Shown here piece by piece: positions 1 to 13,235 of a stretch of DNA of 64,000 nt. A program made the translations under genes and the position numbers. This DNA is from an uncultured Nitrosospira sp. (lineage in GTDB: Bacteria; Nitrospirota; Nitrospiria; Nitrospirales; Nitrospiraceae): the NCBI GenBank assembly GCA_900696515.1, contig CAADGK010000052.1:1-64000 (forward strand), written 5' to 3'. Every line of letters starts with the position of its first letter. Positions within the stretch are counted from its first letter, which is position 1. The notes under the pieces were generated by a model. It was not told where the DNA came from. It worked only from the letters and a program-made list of their open reading frames with translations, and searched no databases.

Positions 1-2266
1 CTGCCGTCCACGTCGTCCCCCCGTTCGTCGTGTAGTACCAGGTCCCATTCGTTTCGTTGCTCCCCGTGATCGCCAGCCCCTTCGTCGCGCTGTCCACATC
101 CGTAATCCCGCCGGTGAACGCACTGAGCGTGGAGCCTACGGCCCCACTCGGCGCCCCCGCATCCTCCGCCACACTCAAGGTCAAACCCGTGTCCGCCAAC
201 ACCGGCGCATCGTTGACCGCCGTCACGGTCACATTGGCTGTGGCGGTATCCGTACCGCCATTGGCATCAGCAATCGTGTAGGTGAAGGAGGCTGGGCCGG
301 AATAGTCGGCATTGGGCACAAAGGAGAAAGCACCGGTCGCAGCATTCGTGATCGTCAGGGTCCCCGTAGCCAGGGAGATTGGGGTCCCCACCGTGAACGA
401 CGCGCCATTGATCCTGGTGATGGTGAACGCATCACCGGTTGGATCGCTGTCCGCACCGGCACCGTTGTTGGTAAACAGATTACCGCTGAGCGTCGTGTCT
501 TCGTTGGCCGTGAAGGTATCGTTTTTTGCGTCCGGAGGCGCATCGAAGGTGAGTTTCAGCTCGATCGCGTCACCTCCAGCGCCTTCAACATTGCTCGCAG
601 CGACTGCAGCTTGCAGGAGAAAGGTCACGCTGGTGACCGTCCCGTTCACACGGACACTCCCTGCTGCCGTCCCCTGGGTGATCGTGGTACTGGATTCAGA
701 TGCCGTCACTGACGCACCGTTGGCCACACCAATTTGAGTATTGGTGATGACATTGCCGCTGACTCCGAAGTGCGCAGTTCCGGAGAGACGGGTCAAACTC
801 ACGCCGGCATCCAGCAGCGTAAGACTCATGCCGTTATGTTGCAAATTAGACTGGAGGGCGCCGAGCCTATCGAGATGGAGGATAGGATCCTTCACCGCCT
901 GGCTGAATGTGATCGTCATTCTGGCTGTGCCGGCATCAGCTGCGGCTTGGGCCGTGGCACCTTCCGGGGTGGTATCCCACGAGAACGTCATACCCAAACT
1001 GGTCGTATTCTGGACTGCGGGAGTAAATACCCCAAGGTTGTTCAACGTTGCTGACGTCCCCGTCGTAGCAAAGCTGTTCACTGACGTCGTGGCATTGGAG
1101 AAGTTGCTGAACGATACCGTCGTCGTCACCCCCCCGACGGTCGTGCTGGCTGACGCCGTACCGGTGCTGCTCGCTGTGGTGCCGGTGACAGCCCATGTGC
1201 CGCTATGTTCTTGACTCAGCACGCCCCGATACAAATCAAACACCAAAACCGTCGTCTCCACCATCCCCACCTGCCGCTCCAACACCCAATCCCCGCCCAG
1301 ATCGGCGGCACCCGTCAGATCGTCGGACGCCGCGACATCGGCGCCGGTGAGGGCCGCCAGTTGACTCACCGCTTCCAGACCTGCATCTCCTTCCGCAAAT
1401 TCACAACCGTAGACGAGGAGATCGGCCTGTGCCGACAGCGCTTGCTTGATCGTTGCAAGCTCGTCGGCGTACTGGCTCGCCATGGTGTCGGCGTTCAGCG
1501 TGCCGGTCCCCAGCTGGAGCGTCCCGGCGTCCCCGTGAGAGATGATGTGAATAGCATCAATGCCGCTGCGTCCCGCCAAGGCACTGGCCATCTGCTCCAC
1601 TCCATCTCGAGCCCCGTCGAGGAGGATCACCTCGATCTTCGGATCCATGCTGCTCAAGAGTTCCTGATAATTGGGCACAGTGGGATCGACGAACGCGACT
1701 GCCACCGGCTGCTCCGCCGGCATATCACTCGTCAGGGCCGGTAAGAGATCCTCGCCCACCGCTGTCGGCTCGTCACCCACGTAGCCATACCGGTCTAACT
1801 CGGTATCGGGACTAGTAGCATCTGAGCCTTCACCAAAATAGTCACCTCCCAGAATCCCGGTCCAGTTCATCTGGTCACTCTCACCCACAACGAGAGGGGG
1901 CTCGGTCGAACCGGGCTGCACGTCAACCGTTTCAAGGTTGTTCGAGACGGTGGAACCACCAAGATTTAGATCTAGGTACTCCCCAGGTAGATAGGTCGCC
2001 AATGCGTGTACTACATCATCTCCCCTCGCCCGCTCCTCGCCGGCCACTTCATGGGAGGCATCACCGGACACAGCCGCCTCTGCCTGTTCTTGGGCAACTT
2101 GCGCTGACGCCACGTCAGAAGCTGTCGCTGCCGCCGCAGCATCAAACATGAGACGGGACTCGAGTGAGAGGATGAGTGACTTCGAAGGGGGTGCCCCTGA
2201 AGCTTTTGATGCCGGCGCCGGCTTCTTGTGTTTCCGGGAGGGATTCCGTTTCTTTCGTTGAAACAT
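1..2266 (-). CDS. Giant surface/exported protein: LEPR-XLL-like N-terminus, DUF4347, cadherin-like repeats (3' end outside window)
   Basis: An uninterrupted minus-strand frame runs from ATG at 2266 to the left edge (about 755 codons), so the C-terminus lies outside the window. The N-terminus is basic (MFQRKKRNPSRKHKK) without a classical signal peptide. Residues 31-44 read LILSLESRLMFDAA, a close match to the LEPR-XLL motif known near the N-terminus of very large repetitive surface proteins. Residues about 187-350 match DUF4347 (VDPTVPNYQELL, HIISHGDAGTLQLG, VYGCEFAEGDAG, YRGVLSQ ending). Next come Thr/Ser/Ala/Gly-rich beta domains and, from about residue 573, cadherin/VCBS-like repeats (DAKNDTFTANEDTTLSGNLF, FTYTIADANGGTDTATANV, VNDAPVLADTG). 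The role is probably adhesin or S-layer/biofilm matrix protein; this is inference. The export-type operon at 2845-8679 lies immediately upstream on the same strand and is the likely secretion route. Confidence 0.85.
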   Translation of the reverse strand, partial: MFQRKKRNPSRKHKKPAPASKASGAPPSKSLILSLESRLMFDAAAAATASDVASAQVAQEQAEAAVSGDASHEVAGEERARGDDVVHALATYLPGEYLDLNLGGSTVSNNLETVDVQPGSTEPPLVVGESDQMNWTGILGGDYFGEGSDATSPDTELDRYGYVGDEPTAVGEDLLPALTSDMPAEQPVAVAFVDPTVPNYQELLSSMDPKIEVILLDGARDGVEQMASALAGRSGIDAIHIISHGDAGTLQLGTGTLNADTMASQYADELATIKQALSAQADLLVYGCEFAEGDAGLEAVSQLAALTGADVAASDDLTGAADLGGDWVLERQVGMVETTVLVFDLYRGVLSQEHSGTWAVTGTTASSTGTASASTTVGGVTTTVSFSNFSNATTSVNSFATTGTSATLNNLGVFTPAVQNTTSLGMTFSWDTTPEGATAQAAADAGTARMTITFSQAVKDPILHLDRLGALQSNLQHNGMSLTLLDAGVSLTRLSGTAHFGVSGNVITNTQIGVANGASVTASESSTTITQGTAAGSVRVNGTVTSVTFLLQAAVAASNVEGAGGDAIELKLTFDAPPDAKNDTFTANEDTTLSGNLFTNNGAGADSDPTGDAFTITRINGASFTVGTPISLATGTLTITNAATGAFSFVPNADYSGPASFTYTIADANGGTDTATANVTVTAVNDAPVLADTGLTLSVAEDAGAPSGAVGSTLSAFTGGITDVDSATKGLAITGSNETNGTWYYTTNGGTTWTA

Positions 2267-2844
2267 CGTGCGCTAAATCCTCTACGGCAACACCGTGTTA
2301 CAGCTTCATCGGCTCGTGGCGCGTCTGGCTGGAGATCAAGGAGAGACCTAGCAGGTCTTAGTCCAGCTCAACTATCGACGAATATCCACAAACAGGCATG
2401 AATCTACTAGAACAGCTTTTAACGGAACGAAATCCGGTCACGAAGTGCATCGAAATGTACCGCAATGACCAAGAAGGAGATCAATGGACCCGTCCAGTCC
2501 CGAGCCTCGAAACAGACCGATCGGATCGGAAAACCAGCCTGCTAACTTGATTAAGACTATTTCATGACCTGCAACTCGGATGGAGAGAACATACCTCGCC
2601 GCTGGATCGCATTGAACTGGAGGCCGGACAGTTTTTCCGGCTCTGTGTGACGGAGCAGCTTCACCAAGCTATGGTCGACAAAGCAGCGTAGGAAAACGTG
2701 ATGCGTGAAGCGTATTTCGCCATTCGATTCTGAGTTTCAGGTTTCAAGTTCAACGTTTCACGTTAGCCAAACCCTGAAACATGAGACTTGAAACTTCAAA
2801 CCCTTGCACGATGCACTTCACGAGGGACGCTTCACGTACGTACG
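2267..2844. other. Intergenic gap between the giant protein and the export operon
   Basis: About 580 bases without a convincing gene. A 50-codon plus-strand frame (2398-2550) starts MNLLEQLLTERNPVTKC. It is followed in another frame by LGWREHTSPLDRIELEAGQF, ending at a stop near 2690. The pair looks like a decayed or frameshifted small gene, but no family is recognised. The right part (2698-2836) holds a nested inverted repeat listed separately. A promoter for the giant gene should lie left of about 2400, but no clear -35/-10 pair was identified. Confidence 0.4.
2698..2836. repeat. Nested inverted repeat of the TTCACG/GTTTCA family
   Basis: Outer arms are perfect 10-mers: CGTGAAGCGT at 2704-2713 and ACGCTTCACG at 2827-2836. 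Inner arms of 27 nt (2734-2760 and 2775-2801) match at about 20 of 27 positions. The element starts 8 bases beyond the stop codon (2845) of the M50-HlyD gene, where a 3' hairpin or transcription end would be expected. Related sequence occurs at 44580-44660 and 58276-58399, so this is a dispersed family. Confidence 0.7.
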
Positions 2845-4986
2845 TTAGAACCCACTCTCCCTGACCAAGGTGGCCGCCACCTGATCCCACGCCCGTTGGG
2901 CCACACTCGACGGTTGTCCTTCAATCTGGACATGGCCGGGAAGGATCTGGTCGGGAGAAGTCATCGTGTCGTCCAAACTCAGGCGGACACGGTAGACGGA
3001 GACCTCCGGTTTGAGCCGACCCTTGTCGTCCTTTCTGACGGGCACATCTCCCCCGTACACGGAGGCGAGATACGGTACCGTGAACTCGCGCTCATCGATC
3101 TCGGCAATCTGCGTAACATGGGCCCCAACCGACGGCCTCGTGAGATCGAGCGGAATAAATCGAGCCGGCTGGCCGACTTCGACATAGGCCAGTTCACCGA
3201 CAGAAACGAAACTTTCGATCTCCACCTGATGATCGCCCACCAGATACGCAATGGGCACGTTCTGGTCAATCCATCGTCCCGGAGCGAGTGAATCCGCTCG
3301 ATCTCGCACGATGCCGCCGATAGGGGCTTTCAGAATCAAGTTGGCTCGTTTGGCCTCGAGCCCCGTCAGCTCGGCGAGTCCTGCTCGCAGTGATTCCCCG
3401 ATAACCTGTCGCTGATCGCGATCCCGTCCGTATCCCGCCAATCGGCCAAGCCGGTAGTCCCACATCGCCACTTTGGTCGTGGCCAATCGGACTTCTTTGT
3501 CCAACGCCGGATTCTCCAGCACCACCAGCGCATCCCCAGCCTGAACGACCTGTCCGTCACGTACCAACACCTCCTGGAGGCGACCCGGGGTCGGCGCAAA
3601 AATGGTCGCGTAGGACGAGGCCTGCAGGACAGCCGGGATCGAGATGCTCGTGTGCATTGGAATCAATGTCATCGCAAACAGGGCCACCACACATGCAGCG
3701 CTGAGCCAAGCCCGTGGCGAGGCGGCAAACAGGGTTCGGCTGTTCCACCAGACAGTCAGCTCCCGATAGATCGGCATGGCAATGAACCAGACAATCTCGA
3801 CCAGAAAGAGCATGACGCCCAGGGCCTTGAAAAAGTAGTGATAGACCATCACGGCGATACCGGTGAACAAGATGAGGCGATACAACCAAATCACCCACGC
3901 ATAGACCACCATGGTGTGCTGGACCCGCGCGGATACGACTTCCGGAGGTGGACTATGACGGCCGAATAGCAGGCTCCGCAATCGCCATTGTCCAAAGGCA
4001 AAGGCCCGGTCTTGAAGATTCGGCAGACCGAGGCCATCCGCCAGCACATAGTAGCCGTCGAACCGCATCAGCGGGTTCAGGTTGACGACAAGACTCATCG
4101 CTAGACTTGTCGTGGCCACGATAAAGGCGATGCTCCGCAGCGTCCCTTCGGGGAGAAACCCCCACGACACGAGCGCCAGCGCCGCCAATCCGAGCTCGGC
4201 AATCACCCCGCCTCCGGCGATGAGGAGTCGTTTCCGTTTGGATGTCAGGCGGTACGAATCGGTCACGTCCGAATACATGACCGGCATCATCACCATAAAG
4301 GCCACACCCATGGTCGGCACCCGGCAGCCGAACCTGGTCGCGGTGTAGGCATGGCCGAGTTCATGCACGACCTTCACCGCGCCGAGCGACAGGCTGTAGA
4401 GAATGGCCCCGCGCCAACTGAAAAAATAGAGGAAGGTCGAGACAAATGTATCCCACTGACGTCCGACGAGAATCAGCCCAAACAGCCCGAAGACGCCAAA
4501 GGTCCAACCGGCGACTCTCGTGTACAGCGGCTCAATGAAGGGGAGCGTCGCCGTGAGAAAGTTGTGCGGATGCACCAATGGAATCTTGATGAACAGATAG
4601 TGGTGGACCAGCCACATCAGCCAATGATGTTCACCGGCTTGAGCCTGCCCCTGGTAATCCGTATGCTTGCCGCTGGCCGACTGCTCCGTCAGATTGTTCG
4701 CATAGAGAAACTTCACCAAGTCTTCCACGTCCGCCATGGTCGTTCGACACGTCGTGTCCTTCGTCATCGCGGCATGCAGTTTTTCGATGGTTCCGGCGTT
4801 CCACCGCTGGATCATCTGATAGACCGGCCACTCGATTTGAAAATAGCGGGTGCGAACAGGATCGATGATCGTCCAGGTGGGCACCCCGTCAGGCGTGGGA
4901 GTCCCGCGGTTGAACTCTAGATTAGGTCGGAGTGTCGGCAGTTTCCGTTCTTGCGGCTTGGCGCCTGGTGAGCCGGAAGTCACCAT
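2845..4986 (-). CDS. Membrane M50 (site-2-protease-type) metallopeptidase fused to HlyD-like adaptor domain
   Basis: A 713-residue inner-membrane protein. The soluble N-terminal ~130 residues are followed by several membrane segments. The zinc motif HELGH lies at residues 208-212, and NLNPLMRFDGYY places the third ligand at about Asp310, the arrangement of M50 peptidases. After further membrane segments (about 345-445), the C-terminal ~270 residues form a barrel-sandwich/HlyD-like region (IFAPTPGRLQEVLVRDGQ, later LILKAPIGGIVRDRADSL), presumably periplasmic. This architecture is known among putative peptide zinc metalloproteases near efflux adaptors. It is the last gene of a four-gene operon, 3 nt after its neighbour. 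Likely roles are processing or gating during export of the adjacent giant protein. The domain calls are strong; the role is inferred. Confidence 0.85.
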   Translation of the reverse strand: MVTSGSPGAKPQERKLPTLRPNLEFNRGTPTPDGVPTWTIIDPVRTRYFQIEWPVYQMIQRWNAGTIEKLHAAMTKDTTCRTTMADVEDLVKFLYANNLTEQSASGKHTDYQGQAQAGEHHWLMWLVHHYLFIKIPLVHPHNFLTATLPFIEPLYTRVAGWTFGVFGLFGLILVGRQWDTFVSTFLYFFSWRGAILYSLSLGAVKVVHELGHAYTATRFGCRVPTMGVAFMVMMPVMYSDVTDSYRLTSKRKRLLIAGGGVIAELGLAALALVSWGFLPEGTLRSIAFIVATTSLAMSLVVNLNPLMRFDGYYVLADGLGLPNLQDRAFAFGQWRLRSLLFGRHSPPPEVVSARVQHTMVVYAWVIWLYRLILFTGIAVMVYHYFFKALGVMLFLVEIVWFIAMPIYRELTVWWNSRTLFAASPRAWLSAACVVALFAMTLIPMHTSISIPAVLQASSYATIFAPTPGRLQEVLVRDGQVVQAGDALVVLENPALDKEVRLATTKVAMWDYRLGRLAGYGRDRDQRQVIGESLRAGLAELTGLEAKRANLILKAPIGGIVRDRADSLAPGRWIDQNVPIAYLVGDHQVEIESFVSVGELAYVEVGQPARFIPLDLTRPSVGAHVTQIAEIDEREFTVPYLASVYGGDVPVRKDDKGRLKPEVSVYRVRLSLDDTMTSPDQILPGHVQIEGQPSSVAQRAWDQVAATLVRESGF

Positions 4987-4989
4987 GAT

Positions 4990-6357
4990 TCACCACCCCA
5001 CCCATTGCCGGAGGGCGGTCAACGGGCGGCGCAGCAACAGATAGGCCAATGGTCCCTGTTCTCCGTAAACCTTGGCCGTCCCTTGCCACCCGATCCGGAT
5101 GCGCGGATCCTGAGTCGTCAGCTGCGCGGTGACCCGGTAGGCCAGGACATCGCCCGGCAGGACCTCGGCATGATAACTGGCATGGACCACGGTCGCGGGA
5201 AACGACTCCAAGGCGAGTGCGTTGAGAAAGACAAGGGCCTCGGCTCCCTCTTTGAGCACGATGGCATCCGCCACCGGCAGATCGATGCGCAGCTCGATGC
5301 GCTTCGGATCGGCGATCTCCATGATCCGCTCGCCGACGGTGACCGGTCGCCCGATCCAATCGGACTTGTCGGAATACAGCAGCAATCCCGCCTGCGGGGC
5401 GGCGACCTCGACCTGATTGAGCATTTCTTTCGCATACTGCAACTCGGTATGCCGAAGATCGACCTCCGCCTCTTTTAACGGTACCTCGGCCTTCCGCTGG
5501 GGATCACCGAACCCCGCTTGAACCGACTGACTCTGCTCTGCCCGTGCTACGGTCAACTGCTTTTCGGCGACAAGGAATTGATTGCGGAGGTTCGTGTCTT
5601 CGTACCGGAACAGCGCCGTCCCTGCTTGCACGGTTTGGTTTGGATGCACCAGCACATCGGCGATCACACCGTCGATCGGCGCGCTCACGACAACCGGATC
5701 TTTCGCCATGACTTTGACCGGGGCCACGGCCGAAATCCTGATCGGGAAACACAACGCGGCACCGATGGCAACGGGCACCAGCCACCAGGTCGGCGTCTTG
5801 ATTTTCTTCGACCAGCTGCGCTCCTTTTTTGAGAGGGCCTTCCAGGCGTAGGCATAGCTCCCGGCCAGGCGATGAACAATCGCAATATCATTTTCCTGCC
5901 AGGCGAAATCCCGCTCGAACCACCAGGCGCCGAGCACTGTTTCATCCGGATGCTGCAACGGGCACCAGAATACCTGCCCCTTCACAAACTCCCGCCAGCC
6001 GCTCCGAAGCTCCTCCGGGAGCAGCTCTTCCGTGATCACCACAGGCTGTTTCTTGCTCTCTTCCGCTTGGAAGAGCGCGTGCACCGCCTGCTCCAGCCAG
6101 ACGATCATCGGCGCATGCCGATCGACCACGGCGACACTGGAGGCGTTGAGCACTTGGCAAGGTTCCTTGTCGGAACCCGAGGGACTCAGGAGAAAAGCAT
6201 GATCGTATGGAATCAACCGTCGAGTTTCGTTGACGGACAAAAACTGTAGTTCCTGCACCGTCTTCGCCGCACGGATCTGCCCCTCCAGATGCGTAAGCGC
6301 CGCCAGATGGATCAGTGTTGGGATTTGTTGTGCGGTCGGTTCGGCTGTCGTCGCCAT
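4990..6357 (-). CDS. GAF-like domain plus membrane anchor plus HlyD-like adaptor
   Basis: A 455-residue protein. Residues about 20-175 resemble a GAF domain (LSVNETRRLIPYDHAFLLS, later FWCPLQHPDETVLGAWWFE), presumably cytoplasmic. One membrane segment follows at about 192-212 (WWLVPVAIGAALCFPI). The rest is an HlyD/membrane-fusion region with the usual barrel-sandwich halves (VVVSAPIDGVIADVLVHPNQ and VEVAAPQAGLLLYSDKSDWI) around a helical hairpin. A sensory domain on the cytoplasmic side of an adaptor is unusual. The start ATG is 2 nt after the stop of the upstream gene, so translation is probably coupled. The role is probably an inner-membrane part of an export complex with the M50-HlyD and TolC-like proteins; no ligand can be proposed for the GAF part. 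Confidence 0.8.
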   Translation of the reverse strand: MATTAEPTAQQIPTLIHLAALTHLEGQIRAAKTVQELQFLSVNETRRLIPYDHAFLLSPSGSDKEPCQVLNASSVAVVDRHAPMIVWLEQAVHALFQAEESKKQPVVITEELLPEELRSGWREFVKGQVFWCPLQHPDETVLGAWWFERDFAWQENDIAIVHRLAGSYAYAWKALSKKERSWSKKIKTPTWWLVPVAIGAALCFPIRISAVAPVKVMAKDPVVVSAPIDGVIADVLVHPNQTVQAGTALFRYEDTNLRNQFLVAEKQLTVARAEQSQSVQAGFGDPQRKAEVPLKEAEVDLRHTELQYAKEMLNQVEVAAPQAGLLLYSDKSDWIGRPVTVGERIMEIADPKRIELRIDLPVADAIVLKEGAEALVFLNALALESFPATVVHASYHAEVLPGDVLAYRVTAQLTTQDPRIRIGWQGTAKVYGEQGPLAYLLLRRPLTALRQWVGW

Positions 6358-6359
6358 CG

Positions 6360-7142
6360 TCAGGGTTGCTCCACAAATTGCGCGGACCCGCTCATCCCGC
6401 TCAGAACGTCCTTGGGAAGCGTGTCGAACACGCCGGTCACCTTCACGGTCTGGCTCGCGGCATCGACTGCGGCGCCGATTTCTTTAATCCGTGCCGAATA
6501 GCCTCGGCCCGTCTCATCCACAATGAATGTGAAGTGGGCCTGTCTCTTGAGCCACGTCAACGCCATGGACGGCAGCACCAGTTCGATCTCCAGGCTCGTA
6601 TCGTCCAATACGCTCAGCAGTTTGTCGTTGGGGAATACGTTCTCGTGCTCGTGCACCATGACGTCGACGATGCGGCCGGCGAACGGAGCGGCCAAGTTGC
6701 ACCCGCGCACGTTGATCTCCGCGATCCGCCTCGCGGCTTCGGCTTTCTTGGTGTCCGCCTCCGACACTTCCAGATCAAGCGTACTGACCGCCTTCAGTTT
6801 GGCAAGCTCCTTATTGTTCTGAAGCGTTTTGTTCTTGCCGTCATACTCCGCCGCCGCCGCCGCCAATTCGGCTTGATACTTGTCGCACTCCAACTGAACC
6901 AGCGTCGCCCCTTTGACGAATCGCTGGCCTTCTTTGTACGGAACTTGGTTGACGCGCCCCTGGATCTGGGTATACAGGACAGCCTGTGAGACCGCCTTGA
7001 CAATTCCCCGAGCCACCCCCGATTCCTGCTTGGTTCCTTGGATGAACCGGTCTCCTTTCGACCATCCCGTCGCGGGAGCACCCGCCGTCGTCGCGATCAG
7101 AAGCACGACTGCCACCGAACTAGTGCGCCACCGGTATCGCAT
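6360..7142 (-). CDS. Periplasmic HlyD/RND-type adaptor protein
   Basis: 260 residues beginning with a signal peptide (MRYRWRTSSVAVVLLIATTAG). It then shows a membrane-fusion-protein pattern: a first lipoyl half near VPYKEGQRFVKGATLVQLE, a coiled-coil hairpin rich in Glu/Lys/Ala (YDGKNKTLQNNKELAKLKAV), and a second half at LAAPFAGRIVDVMVHEHENV. It is shorter than full RND adaptors. An AAGGAG element lies about 12 nt before the ATG. The coding region overlaps the end of the TolC-like gene by 23 nt, which indicates translational coupling. It likely bridges the inner-membrane HlyD proteins and the outer-membrane channel. Confidence 0.85.
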   Translation of the reverse strand: MRYRWRTSSVAVVLLIATTAGAPATGWSKGDRFIQGTKQESGVARGIVKAVSQAVLYTQIQGRVNQVPYKEGQRFVKGATLVQLECDKYQAELAAAAAEYDGKNKTLQNNKELAKLKAVSTLDLEVSEADTKKAEAARRIAEINVRGCNLAAPFAGRIVDVMVHEHENVFPNDKLLSVLDDTSLEIELVLPSMALTWLKRQAHFTFIVDETGRGYSARIKEIGAAVDAASQTVKVTGVFDTLPKDVLSGMSGSAQFVEQP

Positions 7143-8679
7143 GAGGTTCCGTTCTCCTTTCTACTCCCGACATGGTGAACCCACCGGATTCCCAATAGTC
7201 CCTGATTGATTCCGCCAGTTGCGCCACACTCTGCCCATCCATGCTGGCGGGAACCGCTTCTTCCCCCACGGAGGCCATCAAGGTGGCATAGGCCGTTTCC
7301 AATCCCGCTCGCGCCGTGTCCAAACGGACATCGGCGGCGACATCGTTGGCTCGCTCCCGAATCAGCGTGAGATCGTTCGCGCGCTGCGTCATCCACAAAT
7401 TCTGAGTCTGCTCCAGAATAGCGGCTTGCGTCTGGTGATAGTTTTTCGCGTCTTGATATTCCTGCTTCGCCAGCACGAACTGCGTCGCGCCGACATAGAC
7501 CTCCGTCAGGACTGACAGGCTGAGCGCCAGGCTCTGGACATCCAACATGTGCCCATTGGCTTCGATGGCCTTGAGTTTGGCCGGTGTTCGGAAAACAGAC
7601 AAGAGGTTGTAGCTCGCCTGCGCAGCATAGGTGAGCCAGTTCTGGTGGAGAAGAAAACTATTGCTGTTGTAATACCCGCCGAACGAGACCTTGAGACTCG
7701 GGAATAACTCCAGAAAGACGGCTTTGGCCTCCTTGGCGTTGATCCGCTTCCGATAATCGATGGCCCGCAGTTCCGGCCGCAGCAGCAACGCTTGCTCTTC
7801 CATTTTTTGACTGTCCAGGTTGACAATCGGGACCGCCGTGGTCCTCTCCGGCACGACAATCTCGAACGACGTCCCGGGCGGCAGCCCCATCATGGACGCC
7901 AACTGGGCTTTTGCGATGCTCAGCTCTCGATACAACCGTCGAACCTCCCGCTGAATATTGAGGAGATCCCGCTGATAGTTGAGCGGCGTCAGCGGCGCCT
8001 GCAGTTTCTGATCGACGATCTTTTGGGTATGCTCCAGGGCCTTGGTCACCGATTCATCCAGAAACCGGATCCGCGGCAGGACCCGTTCCGCACTCACGGC
8101 CCTCCAGTAGGCACTTCTGACATCCTGAACCAGCCGAACCGCGATGCGCCGTTTTTCCTCCTCCGCAATCATGACGTTATCCGCCGCCTGCAGCGCCCGG
8201 ACGAGCGACAATCCAAAGTCCAACACATCCCAACTTAAGGCCAGGTTGCCGGACATGACGTTTTTTTCGGATGACGTGAACGGCTCGACCGCCGGGCGCC
8301 CCGTGAGAATAGATTGCCCGACTCCGCCGGCGAAATTATTTCGCCCATCGAAGCCGGCATTGGCGGCGACTTGGGGCAGCAACGAGTAGTGCGCCACGTT
8401 CAACTGCTGATGCGCGAGCTGAACTTGAATCGCCTTGACCTTCGCATCCAAGTTGTACTTGACCGCCCGTGCCATCGCCTCATACAGACCGATCGGCCCC
8501 ATCACCGGCTCTTCGACAGCGGAGAGGGCAAGAAAGTCTTTCACCGCCCGAGCCTGGATCTCTCCCGTGTCCATCGGACGCGGTTTGATCAAACAACCGC
8601 TTAGCGAGAGAAGAAGCACCGAAGGAAGTACAGCCCGGATTGTCGTACAACGCATCATGTCAAGCGCACCCCGGGGCAT
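7120..8679 (-). CDS. TolC-family outer-membrane channel lipoprotein
   Basis: 519 residues with a lipoprotein-type signal (VLPSVLLLSLSGC, predicted acylated Cys near residue 29). The long helical repeats are typical of outer-membrane efflux proteins (YEAMARAVKYNLDAKVKAIQ, NLALSWDVLDFGLSLVRALQ, PLNYQRDLLNIQREVRRLYR). This is about the normal length for the family. GGAG lies 5 nt before the first ATG, supporting this start. It is the first gene of the operon that continues through the three adaptor genes. With no ABC or RND pump gene beside it, its partners are presumed to be those adaptors. Confidence 0.88.
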   Translation of the reverse strand: MPRGALDMMRCTTIRAVLPSVLLLSLSGCLIKPRPMDTGEIQARAVKDFLALSAVEEPVMGPIGLYEAMARAVKYNLDAKVKAIQVQLAHQQLNVAHYSLLPQVAANAGFDGRNNFAGGVGQSILTGRPAVEPFTSSEKNVMSGNLALSWDVLDFGLSLVRALQAADNVMIAEEEKRRIAVRLVQDVRSAYWRAVSAERVLPRIRFLDESVTKALEHTQKIVDQKLQAPLTPLNYQRDLLNIQREVRRLYRELSIAKAQLASMMGLPPGTSFEIVVPERTTAVPIVNLDSQKMEEQALLLRPELRAIDYRKRINAKEAKAVFLELFPSLKVSFGGYYNSNSFLLHQNWLTYAAQASYNLLSVFRTPAKLKAIEANGHMLDVQSLALSLSVLTEVYVGATQFVLAKQEYQDAKNYHQTQAAILEQTQNLWMTQRANDLTLIRERANDVAADVRLDTARAGLETAYATLMASVGEEAVPASMDGQSVAQLAESIRDYWESGGFTMSGVERRTEPHAIPVAH

Positions 8680-11408: not shown

Positions 11409-13235
11409 CTATGAGGGGTTTTGGATTGCCCCATTCGCCATTCTATTGAACATTTCGTTCCTTGCAAGAAGTTCCCCGTAGGTCCCCTGATCTACGATGA
11501 CTCCATTCTCCAGCAGATAGATGACGTCGGCCGCTTGAACCGTCTTCAGACGATGAGCGATGATGATGACCGTTTTTTTGTGAAAGAGTGTTTTGATCGC
11601 GTCCGTCACTGCCTCTTCAGTGAGACTATCCAACGCGCTCGTCGCTTCGTCGAGAATCAGGACGTCCGGGTTGCTATACAGGGCCCGGGCAATTCCGATG
11701 CGTTGCCTCTGCCCGCCGCTGAGCCTCACACCGCGCTCACCGACCATCGTGTGATACCCGTCGGGCAACTCTCCAAGGACAAACTCATGCAGGTTGGCGA
11801 TCTTGGCGGCTTCCTCCACGCGACCCATGTTTAGGTCTTTGGACGCCACCCCGAACGCGATATTCGCCGCCAGGGTATCATCGGACAAATAGATATGTTG
11901 CGGAACATATCCCAGGTGTTTCTGCCAGGATTTCACATGGCGTGTCGTAATCGGCATCCCGTCCACGGACAAGGTGCCGACTTGCGGCTCAAGTAACCCC
12001 AAAATAATATCGACGAGCGTGGTCTTCCCCCCCCCGGAACTCCCGACGATGGCCACGGTCGAATTCGCTTGGATGGTGAGATTCAAGTTGCGGATGAGTG
12101 GACTATCGGCGGTGGCGTATTGGAATGTCAGATTGCTCAATGCAATCTCTTGTCGCAACGGCCCGATTTTGTCGTTCGCCGGAAGCTCCGCCGTACCGTC
12201 GGCAGCTTGCGCTCCGGCAAACGTCTCCAGCCTCTTTTCAACGGCCTCCAGCGATGGCATGTTGTATCGTATCGCCGTGGCGCTCGCAAAAATCTGCTGG
12301 AATGCCGGAATCAGGCGATATCCGGTCAGCGCATACAAGACCATCAAAGGAAGCGCGTCTTTGAAGTCATGGTGAGTCGCCAGCAAATAAATGACCAGCA
12401 CAATCATCGACCCAAAAGCAATACTTTCGATCCCGTATCGCGGCACCTGACTCATCGTAGAGCTCATCCATTGATTCTTCGCATACACAGCCGCGCACGT
12501 GGCGAACCGCTCCCGATAGGCGTGATCTTGCCCGAGGATCTTGAGCTCCTTGATCCCGCTCAAAATCTCCGTCGCGAGTCGATGTCGTTCCTTATTCGCG
12601 TCTTTAGCCACTCTTCCAAGATCGGCCATTTTCTTTCGAACACCCAGGAACAGGCCGGTATAGATGGCTCCTAACACGGCCCCGAAAGAGACCGCCAACC
12701 ACGGGTCCACCCACACCACAACAAGCAAAATGCTCATGGCGACGATCACTTTGGCGAGCATCTGCAAGAGAGGAACCGTAATACCCTGAATAATGCGCCC
12801 CACATCGTCGGTACAATTCACGACCAGGTCCGAGCTATTCATCTCCAAAAAATAGGCGTAGGGCCTCCGCACGTACTTTGCGAGCATATTCGTGGAGATG
12901 TTATATCCCAGGTGATTGGAAAACTTCAGAATGGCGTACGAGCTGACGAGAGACAAGACATTGCTGAAAACCATGATCCCAAGCGCTGTTGCACCCAGCC
13001 CGATCAGAAACGTGTCGGTGGATTCAAACTCCAACCAGGTAAAGATGGTGTGCAGCCGAGGATTCGTCCGGATCACTTCAGGGTTGCCCACCACCGCCAT
13101 GAACGGCAGTATCGATGACACGCCCAGCACATCGATGAACCCGGTAAGCACGATCAGTCCGAGCAGTCCATAAGAGAGACGCCGCTCCTCGGCATTCAAC
13201 AATGCTCGCAGTCGTTTAATAAGTATCCGCATCAA
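11409..13235 (-). CDS. ABC exporter, permease and ATPase fused (PglK/lipid-flippase-like)
   Basis: 608 residues. The N-terminal ~320 residues carry about six membrane segments (GLLGLIVLTGFIDVLGVSSI is the first). The ATPase follows, with Walker A GSSGGGKTT near residue 397, ABC signature LSGGQRQRIGIARAL near 503, Walker B VLILDEATSALD near 527 and the H-loop in IIIAHRLKTV. The N-terminus resembles PglK/WlaB-type flippases of lipid-linked oligosaccharides, but no glycan genes are adjacent, so the substrate is uncertain. The start uses the first of two adjacent ATGs. Confidence 0.88.
   Translation of the reverse strand: MMRILIKRLRALLNAEERRLSYGLLGLIVLTGFIDVLGVSSILPFMAVVGNPEVIRTNPRLHTIFTWLEFESTDTFLIGLGATALGIMVFSNVLSLVSSYAILKFSNHLGYNISTNMLAKYVRRPYAYFLEMNSSDLVVNCTDDVGRIIQGITVPLLQMLAKVIVAMSILLVVVWVDPWLAVSFGAVLGAIYTGLFLGVRKKMADLGRVAKDANKERHRLATEILSGIKELKILGQDHAYRERFATCAAVYAKNQWMSSTMSQVPRYGIESIAFGSMIVLVIYLLATHHDFKDALPLMVLYALTGYRLIPAFQQIFASATAIRYNMPSLEAVEKRLETFAGAQAADGTAELPANDKIGPLRQEIALSNLTFQYATADSPLIRNLNLTIQANSTVAIVGSSGGGKTTLVDIILGLLEPQVGTLSVDGMPITTRHVKSWQKHLGYVPQHIYLSDDTLAANIAFGVASKDLNMGRVEEAAKIANLHEFVLGELPDGYHTMVGERGVRLSGGQRQRIGIARALYSNPDVLILDEATSALDSLTEEAVTDAIKTLFHKKTVIIIAHRLKTVQAADVIYLLENGVIVDQGTYGELLARNEMFNRMANGAIQNPS

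Follow-up and report, generated by a model that had tools for sequence, protein, structure and literature searches.

Large serine-rich adhesins are exported in Gram-positive bacteria by the accessory Sec (SecA2) system, and leader peptides are bound by RiPP recognition elements (RREs) in the biosynthesis of ribosomally synthesized and post-translationally modified peptides (RiPPs). The locus described here has features in common with both, as well as with the type I secretion systems (T1SS) for giant adhesins (LapBCE/HlyBD-TolC) and with a module known from secondary SecA_DEAD proteins. It lies at one end of a window of 64,000 nucleotides, the first 64 kb of contig C52 (81 kb) from a Nitrospira-type genome of 4.6 Mb, and consists of a four-gene cassette (a TolC-like protein, a small HlyD-type adaptor, GAF-HlyD and M50-HlyD) and the gene of a giant protein that has a LEPR-XLL motif, LESRLMFDAA, near its start and a DUF4347 domain. 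We conclude, with a probability of roughly two in three (0.66), that giant LEPR-XLL proteins have an export pathway of their own, encoded at this locus, which is guided by an RRE and not driven by an ATP-binding cassette (ABC) transporter. The conclusion rests on the gene content, the conserved linkage and co-occurrence, the predicted RRE and clan CD folds, the intact catalytic residues and the ABC-free cassette.

The module itself has been known since 2015, when Kamneva et al. (2015; PMC4452313) linked secondary SecA_DEAD proteins to M50-HlyD, GAF-HlyD and HlyD, noted them in Nitrospirae and Proteobacteria, and proposed the SecA_DEAD protein as the ATPase and M50 as the pore; the biological role was called completely unknown. 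That study names no substrate and mentions neither LEPR and giant proteins nor PqqD/RRE. Common to that module and our locus are M50-HlyD, GAF-HlyD and HlyD together, with T1SS-like parts and no ABC, whereas in the window version the locus lacks a secondary SecA_DEAD gene and includes a TolC of its own. In the literature searched, which did not cover subscription papers and in which later work may be missed, LEPR-XLL and DUF4347 appear only incidentally and no surface route for LEPR-XLL proteins is described. To this the present work adds probable substrates, an RRE domain by predicted fold, and a version of the module without SecA.

The linkage of cassette and giant was followed in 80 loci with M50-HlyD relatives, which were gathered and mapped. 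A giant with an N-terminal LExR-x-MFD/LLSAD motif adjoins the cassette in Nitrospirota, Alphaproteobacteria including SAR11, Gammaproteobacteria and Geobacteraceae, and the position and context of the motif of the window giant are conserved among relatives. Two subtypes of the cassette can be told apart: subtype A, to which the window version belongs, and a sister form, subtype B, of Gammaproteobacteria and some Nitrospira. Sphingorhabdus and Erythrobacter have subtype A, and Methylobacterium extorquens AM1 has subtype B according to Kamneva et al. (2015). The usual order in Nitrospira is TolC, HlyD, GAF-HlyD, M50-HlyD and giant, a position of the OEP/TolC-like gene that most subtype A loci share, and an open reading frame (ORF) with the motif follows M50-HlyD directly in 39 of the 43 Nitrospira loci with enough sequence. 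The four exceptions are a locus with a masked giant region and visible C-terminus (L056), one with little sequence (L073), one with broken genes (L085) and one from which the giant is missing (L070). In Sphingomonadales, Erythrobacter and SAR11 the giant stands upstream of the cassette, with DUF4347 and LEPRMMFDGAA or LEPRIMFDGAA in its N-terminus; gammaproteobacterial giants also adjoin the cassette, and a Parvularculaceae locus has a giant with LEQRILLDA in a genome without DUF4347. These changed gene orders argue against mere inherited synteny.

Co-occurrence was counted in 59 Nitrospirales genomes (M50-HlyD ortholog threshold E<1e-100) and in 369 gammaproteobacterial genomes spread over the class (LEPR-XLL model threshold E<1e-3). 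In Nitrospirales, DUF4347 is present in 23/59 genomes, all of them among the 24 with an M50-HlyD ortholog. M50-HlyD occurs in 59/369 gammaproteobacteria; DUF4347 exceeds its cut-off in 47, with 37 shared against 7.5 expected (Fisher p 2e-26), and LEPR-XLL was detected in 28, of which 26 have M50-HlyD against 4.5 expected (Fisher p 2e-21). Where the N-terminus of a gammaproteobacterial DUF4347 protein could be read, motif and cassette were both present in 23 cases, the motif was present and the cassette not found in two (G322, G363), and neither was present in four, so that DUF4347 is motif-less in 4 of the 6 readable genomes without M50-HlyD. No clear motif-less protein with a cassette was seen among them, G368 being unjudgeable because its locus begins inside a tandem repeat, and six gammaproteobacteria have a LEPR protein and the cassette without any DUF4347. 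The LEPR-XLL motif, rather than DUF4347, tracks the cassette. DUF4347 as the address tag is rejected in view of the motif-less DUF4347 proteins without a cassette and of the LEPR giants that have a cassette and no DUF4347. The sequence-only reading of this window had looked for support to a tight, repeated pairing of LEPR-XLL proteins with M50-HlyD and GAF-HlyD genes, and such a pairing is found across several phyla (39/43 Nitrospira loci, 26/28 gammaproteobacteria).

A candidate reader of the motif was found in M50-HlyD, whose first ~100 residues are conserved and unnamed in Pfam. A distant paralog exceeds the Pfam PqqD cut-off, two other subtype B proteins match PqqD below threshold, and hhalign comparison of the N-domain with PqqD gives E 1.3e-6 at a probability of 91%. 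The AlphaFold2 (AF2) model of the N-domain, with a predicted local distance difference test (pLDDT) score of 87.7, has the PqqD-like fold of three strands and three helices. All eight of its best Foldseek matches are RREs, mostly leader-bound (TbiB1 with leader, probability 0.99-1.00; CteB), and VIA-align places lasso-peptide B1 proteins on top (Z 9.8, 9.4 and 9.1), then PqqD (8.0), followed by CteB, LynD, TruD, MccB, SuiB and McbB, with unrelated folds at ~3 apart from GdmN (6.8). When the RRE alignment was run as a profile against the PDB, no sequence match reached significance, and the matches to solved structures come from the comparison of folds. The predicted RRE-like fold of the N-domain thus offers the motif a plausible reader. 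The sequence-only reading had taken the motif for a sorting signal of the M50-HlyD/GAF-HlyD pair; its M50-HlyD part is strengthened by this independent structural finding together with the tight pairing.

The likeness to the RREs of RiPP biosynthesis and to PqqD (TbiB1, TfuB1, CteB) extends to the short conserved motif near the cargo N-terminus, whereas the cargo here is thousands of residues long and no modifying enzyme was recognised. The M50 membrane domain is likewise homologous to that of the daptide leader protease (NF041824; E 3e-46, under the curated cut-off) and other M50 RiPP proteases, from which it differs by its fusion to RRE and HlyD and its linkage to giants. Both resemblances would suit a cassette that exports a small RiPP-like peptide, the giant being a neighbour or partner and not the cargo. 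This we regard as very improbable, because the neighbourhoods, in which small ORFs were not searched exhaustively, showed neither a recognisable precursor peptide nor a modifying enzyme, and because the LEPR giant accompanies the cassette across phyla despite changing gene order.

As the sequence-only reading had noted, the cassette includes no ABC exporter. Of 70 long loci, 1 has a full-size ABC of the exporter type within ~10 kb. A PglK/MsbA-like ABC exporter at 11409-13235 of the window was considered as the motor and rejected; apart from the window, only the closely related locus L056 has it nearby, and it is apparently unrelated. With the T1SS for giant adhesins the locus shares a TolC-type channel, an HlyD adaptor and very large repetitive surface cargo, and it differs in having no HlyB/LapB ABC, in an N-terminal motif as opposed to a known C-terminal signal, and in adaptors fused to GAF and M50. 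The giant might nevertheless be a type I substrate for which the cassette gives the adaptor and outer-membrane parts and an ABC encoded elsewhere is the motor, as the TolC and HlyD parts would allow and as two full-length HlyB/LapB-like T1SS-type ABCs of the window's own genome (G000), located elsewhere on C120, would permit. However, seven cassette-bearing genomes (G048, G055, G239, G301, G437, G062 and G070, the last two being small single-cell genomes that may be incomplete) have no full-length HlyB/LapB-type ABC (TIGR03375) and only partial MsbA-type matches or none; a motor supplied by a T1SS ABC from elsewhere in the genome is therefore rejected as a rule. Moreover, exporter-type ABCs are as rare near the cassette as stated, complete giants of relatives end in a hydrophobic helix with a charged tail or in other sequences (the window cargo is cut by the contig end), and the sister cassettes carry a SecA-like ATPase and not an ABC. 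We consider this explanation quite unlikely.

That ATPase, of ~665 aa, directly follows M50-HlyD in subtype B and has SecA_DEAD, SecA_PP_bind and a P-loop. Among the gammaproteobacteria it occurs in 21/369 genomes, in 21/21 together with M50-HlyD and in nearly all adjacent to it. The sequence-only reading had spoken of a variant type-1-like pathway; its TolC and HlyD parts are indeed type-1-like, but since the sister cassettes carry a SecA-like ATPase the pathway is better termed SecA-linked and RRE-guided. No SecA-like ORF was found in subtype A loci, and genomes with subtype A only, including that of the window, have a single SecA; the SecA_DEAD match of the window genome is on another contig. 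Housekeeping SecA is the simplest candidate that we can suggest for the motor of subtype A. The sister version recalls the accessory Sec system in having a SecA paralog that would be devoted to large surface proteins; the differences are the Gram-negative envelope, the absence of any SecY2 seen, another leader motif and other adaptors and, in the window version, the lack of a SecA paralog.

A single SecA in subtype A genomes would also fit a different division of labour, in which ordinary SecYEG/SecA moves the giants across the inner membrane and the task of the cassette is limited to their processing, anchoring or release: M50 would be a site-2-type protease for the leader or the C-terminal helix, DUF4347 an autoprotease, and TolC/HlyD would serve unrelated cargo. 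In line with it, many giants of Nitrospira have a hydrophobic helix and a charged tail at the C-terminus, and the protease motifs are intact: HExxH and NPxxRFDG are invariant in 31 aligned subtype A proteins, with single substitutions only outside the catalytic residues (H208, E209, H212, N302 and D310 in 31/31), and HExxH is present in 23/23 M50-HlyD proteins examined from gammaproteobacteria and Nitrospira paralogs. Nevertheless, a Sec signal peptide is not evident in the giant N-terminus, in agreement with the sequence-only reading (the best 19-residue hydropathy within residues 1-120 is 1.13, in a segment that includes E, R and D), two to three adaptors and TolC travel with the giant, and the C-terminal helix is absent from alphaproteobacterial giants, so that an anchor conserved in all giants is ruled out. 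We judge this division of labour unlikely.

The second putative peptidase of the locus is DUF4347 itself, at residues 190-341 of the window giant (Pfam E 1.3e-54). Its AF2 model (pLDDT 93) matches Tce1 of a Pseudomonas aeruginosa type VI secretion complex (9qpe), which is itself a DUF4347 protein and the nearest solved structure (Z 13.7), then CHAT proteases (9.7 to 7.8) and legumain and caspases (~7). Of 50 sequences, at least 90% retain the His and the Cys, and the domain is, by its predicted structure, a caspase/CHAT-like clan CD fold with a His-Cys pair. Its Pfam name still reads "unknown function".

For the dedicated pathway we infer leader binding, export, direction, motor and proteolysis, and propose the following course. 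The RRE on the cytoplasmic end of M50-HlyD would bind the N-terminal leader of the giant around LExR-x-MFD-x-A, as RREs do with RiPP leaders. An inner-membrane complex made up of M50-HlyD and GAF-HlyD, which the GAF domain may gate, would then receive the giant with the N-terminus leading. In the sister version the SecA-like ATPase of the cassette would push the giant, a task for which housekeeping SecA would be the simplest candidate in the window version. The giant would leave through the HlyD adaptor and TolC conduit. Removal or release of the leader may fall to the M50 protease, and in giants that have DUF4347 this domain may serve for self-processing or for release of the surface protein. 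Whether all this amounts to a distinct Gram-negative pathway, in which an RRE, a domain hitherto met in enzymes of peptide natural products, reads an N-terminal leader on proteins of up to ~14,000 residues, M50-HlyD is the gate, the motor is SecA-like or another, and LEPR-XLL is the address tag, is in our view an even bet.

Several observations weigh against the dedicated pathway. The window protein scores 12.7 bits with the NCBIfam LEPR-XLL model NF012209, for which the cut-off is 17 bits (a relative, L028, reaches 19.6 bits). Pfam PqqD gives no call on the N-domain of the window M50-HlyD, and the RRE match is one of fold, with 12-17% identity in the best rows; binding of LEPR-XLL by this domain is suggested by analogy with RiPP RREs. 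The window version encodes no recognised motor, and G000 has the T1SS-type ABCs mentioned above. Kinship among the genomes makes the co-occurrence p-values overstate independence, 16 of the 59 gammaproteobacteria with M50-HlyD have neither LEPR nor DUF4347 above cut-off (three have weak LEPR matches in the adjacent ORF), and G021 has a cassette without a giant (L070).

Table 1. Features of the cassette and giant gene in the window.
Feature	Position	Strand	Evidence
TolC-like outer-membrane factor (OEP), 519 aa, lipoprotein-like N-terminus	7120..8679	-	Pfam OEP E 1.2e-24
Small periplasmic adaptor, HlyD/RND-MFP type, 260 aa	6360..7142	-	TIGR01730 E 6.8e-32; HlyD_3 E 1.2e-16
GAF-HlyD, 455 aa: cytoplasmic GAF-like N-domain, one transmembrane segment (~192-210), periplasmic adaptor	4990..6357	-	HlyD_3 E 4.6e-15; transmembrane segment from hydropathy
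M50-HlyD, 713 aa: RRE-like N-domain, M50 site-2-protease-like membrane domain, C-terminal periplasmic adaptor	2845..4986	-	Pfam/NCBIfam
RRE/PqqD-like domain of M50-HlyD (residues 9-113), proposed LEPR-XLL reader	4648..4962	-	AF2, Foldseek, VIA-align, hhalign
Giant LEPR-XLL/DUF4347 protein, N-terminal 755 aa, no stop	2..2266 (start 2266, runs to <2)	-	ORF and Pfam
LEPR-XLL motif region SLESRLMFDAAA (residues 34-45), proposed leader	2132..2167	-	Motif in adjacent giants of relatives
DUF4347, caspase/CHAT-like (clan CD), SHG histidine and YGC cysteine	1232..1750	-	AF2, fold searches, conservation
First Big_9/cadherin-like repeat of the giant's stalk (residues 577-680)	227..538	-	Pfam Big_9 E 5e-16

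The five minus-strand genes of the sequence-only reading are all present (Table 1), as ORF checks and domain searches agree. Domain searches also recovered its TolC-like (as OEP), HlyD, M50 and DUF4347 assignments. Pfam does not detect its GAF domain in the window GAF-HlyD protein; that assignment comes from comparing profiles (hhalign E 1.4e-5, probability 80%) with the sister family, where Pfam recognises GAF (E 2.5e-11). The four cassette genes overlap or abut, and a 578-bp gap precedes the giant. Window position 1 is the end of C52, where the assembly breaks the giant gene; the left side is therefore unreadable here, and the downstream side was taken from relatives. The genome has one M50-HlyD and three DUF4347 proteins, namely the window giant, an LEQRLMFDAA protein on C15 and a protein at the end of C39 (L003, 1477-2391) that has no LEPR motif, begins directly with DUF4347 and probably uses another export route; for want of the motif it was left out of the substrate examples.

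Among relatives, LEPR-XLL ORFs of Gammaproteobacteria reach 14112 (G317), 13848 (G130) and 12249 (G184) codons, and the giant DUF4347 ORF of the SAR11-type single cell G062 has 4336; SAR11-type marine bacteria with small genomes and related single cells (L100-L117) retain the cassette and a giant DUF4347 protein. In several Nitrospira a PBP1b-like penicillin-binding protein and a bactofilin come after the giant (e.g., L053, 16567-19428). Regulators near the cassettes, a PAS-histidine kinase in Nitrospira (L070, 12687-14603) and a PAS-GGDEF-EAL protein in a gammaproteobacterium (L240, 5021-8146), share a similar N-terminal sensor sequence, a hint that both subtypes are under common control.

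LEPR-XLL proteins are among the largest bacterial proteins, and the cassette occurs in environmentally important groups such as Nitrospira and SAR11. The SecA_DEAD/M50-HlyD module, without a substrate since 2015, is here joined to the LEPR-XLL giants and to a candidate reader of their tag, which makes both questions testable. If the proposed pathway is true, leader recognition by RREs would extend from small peptides to protein secretion.

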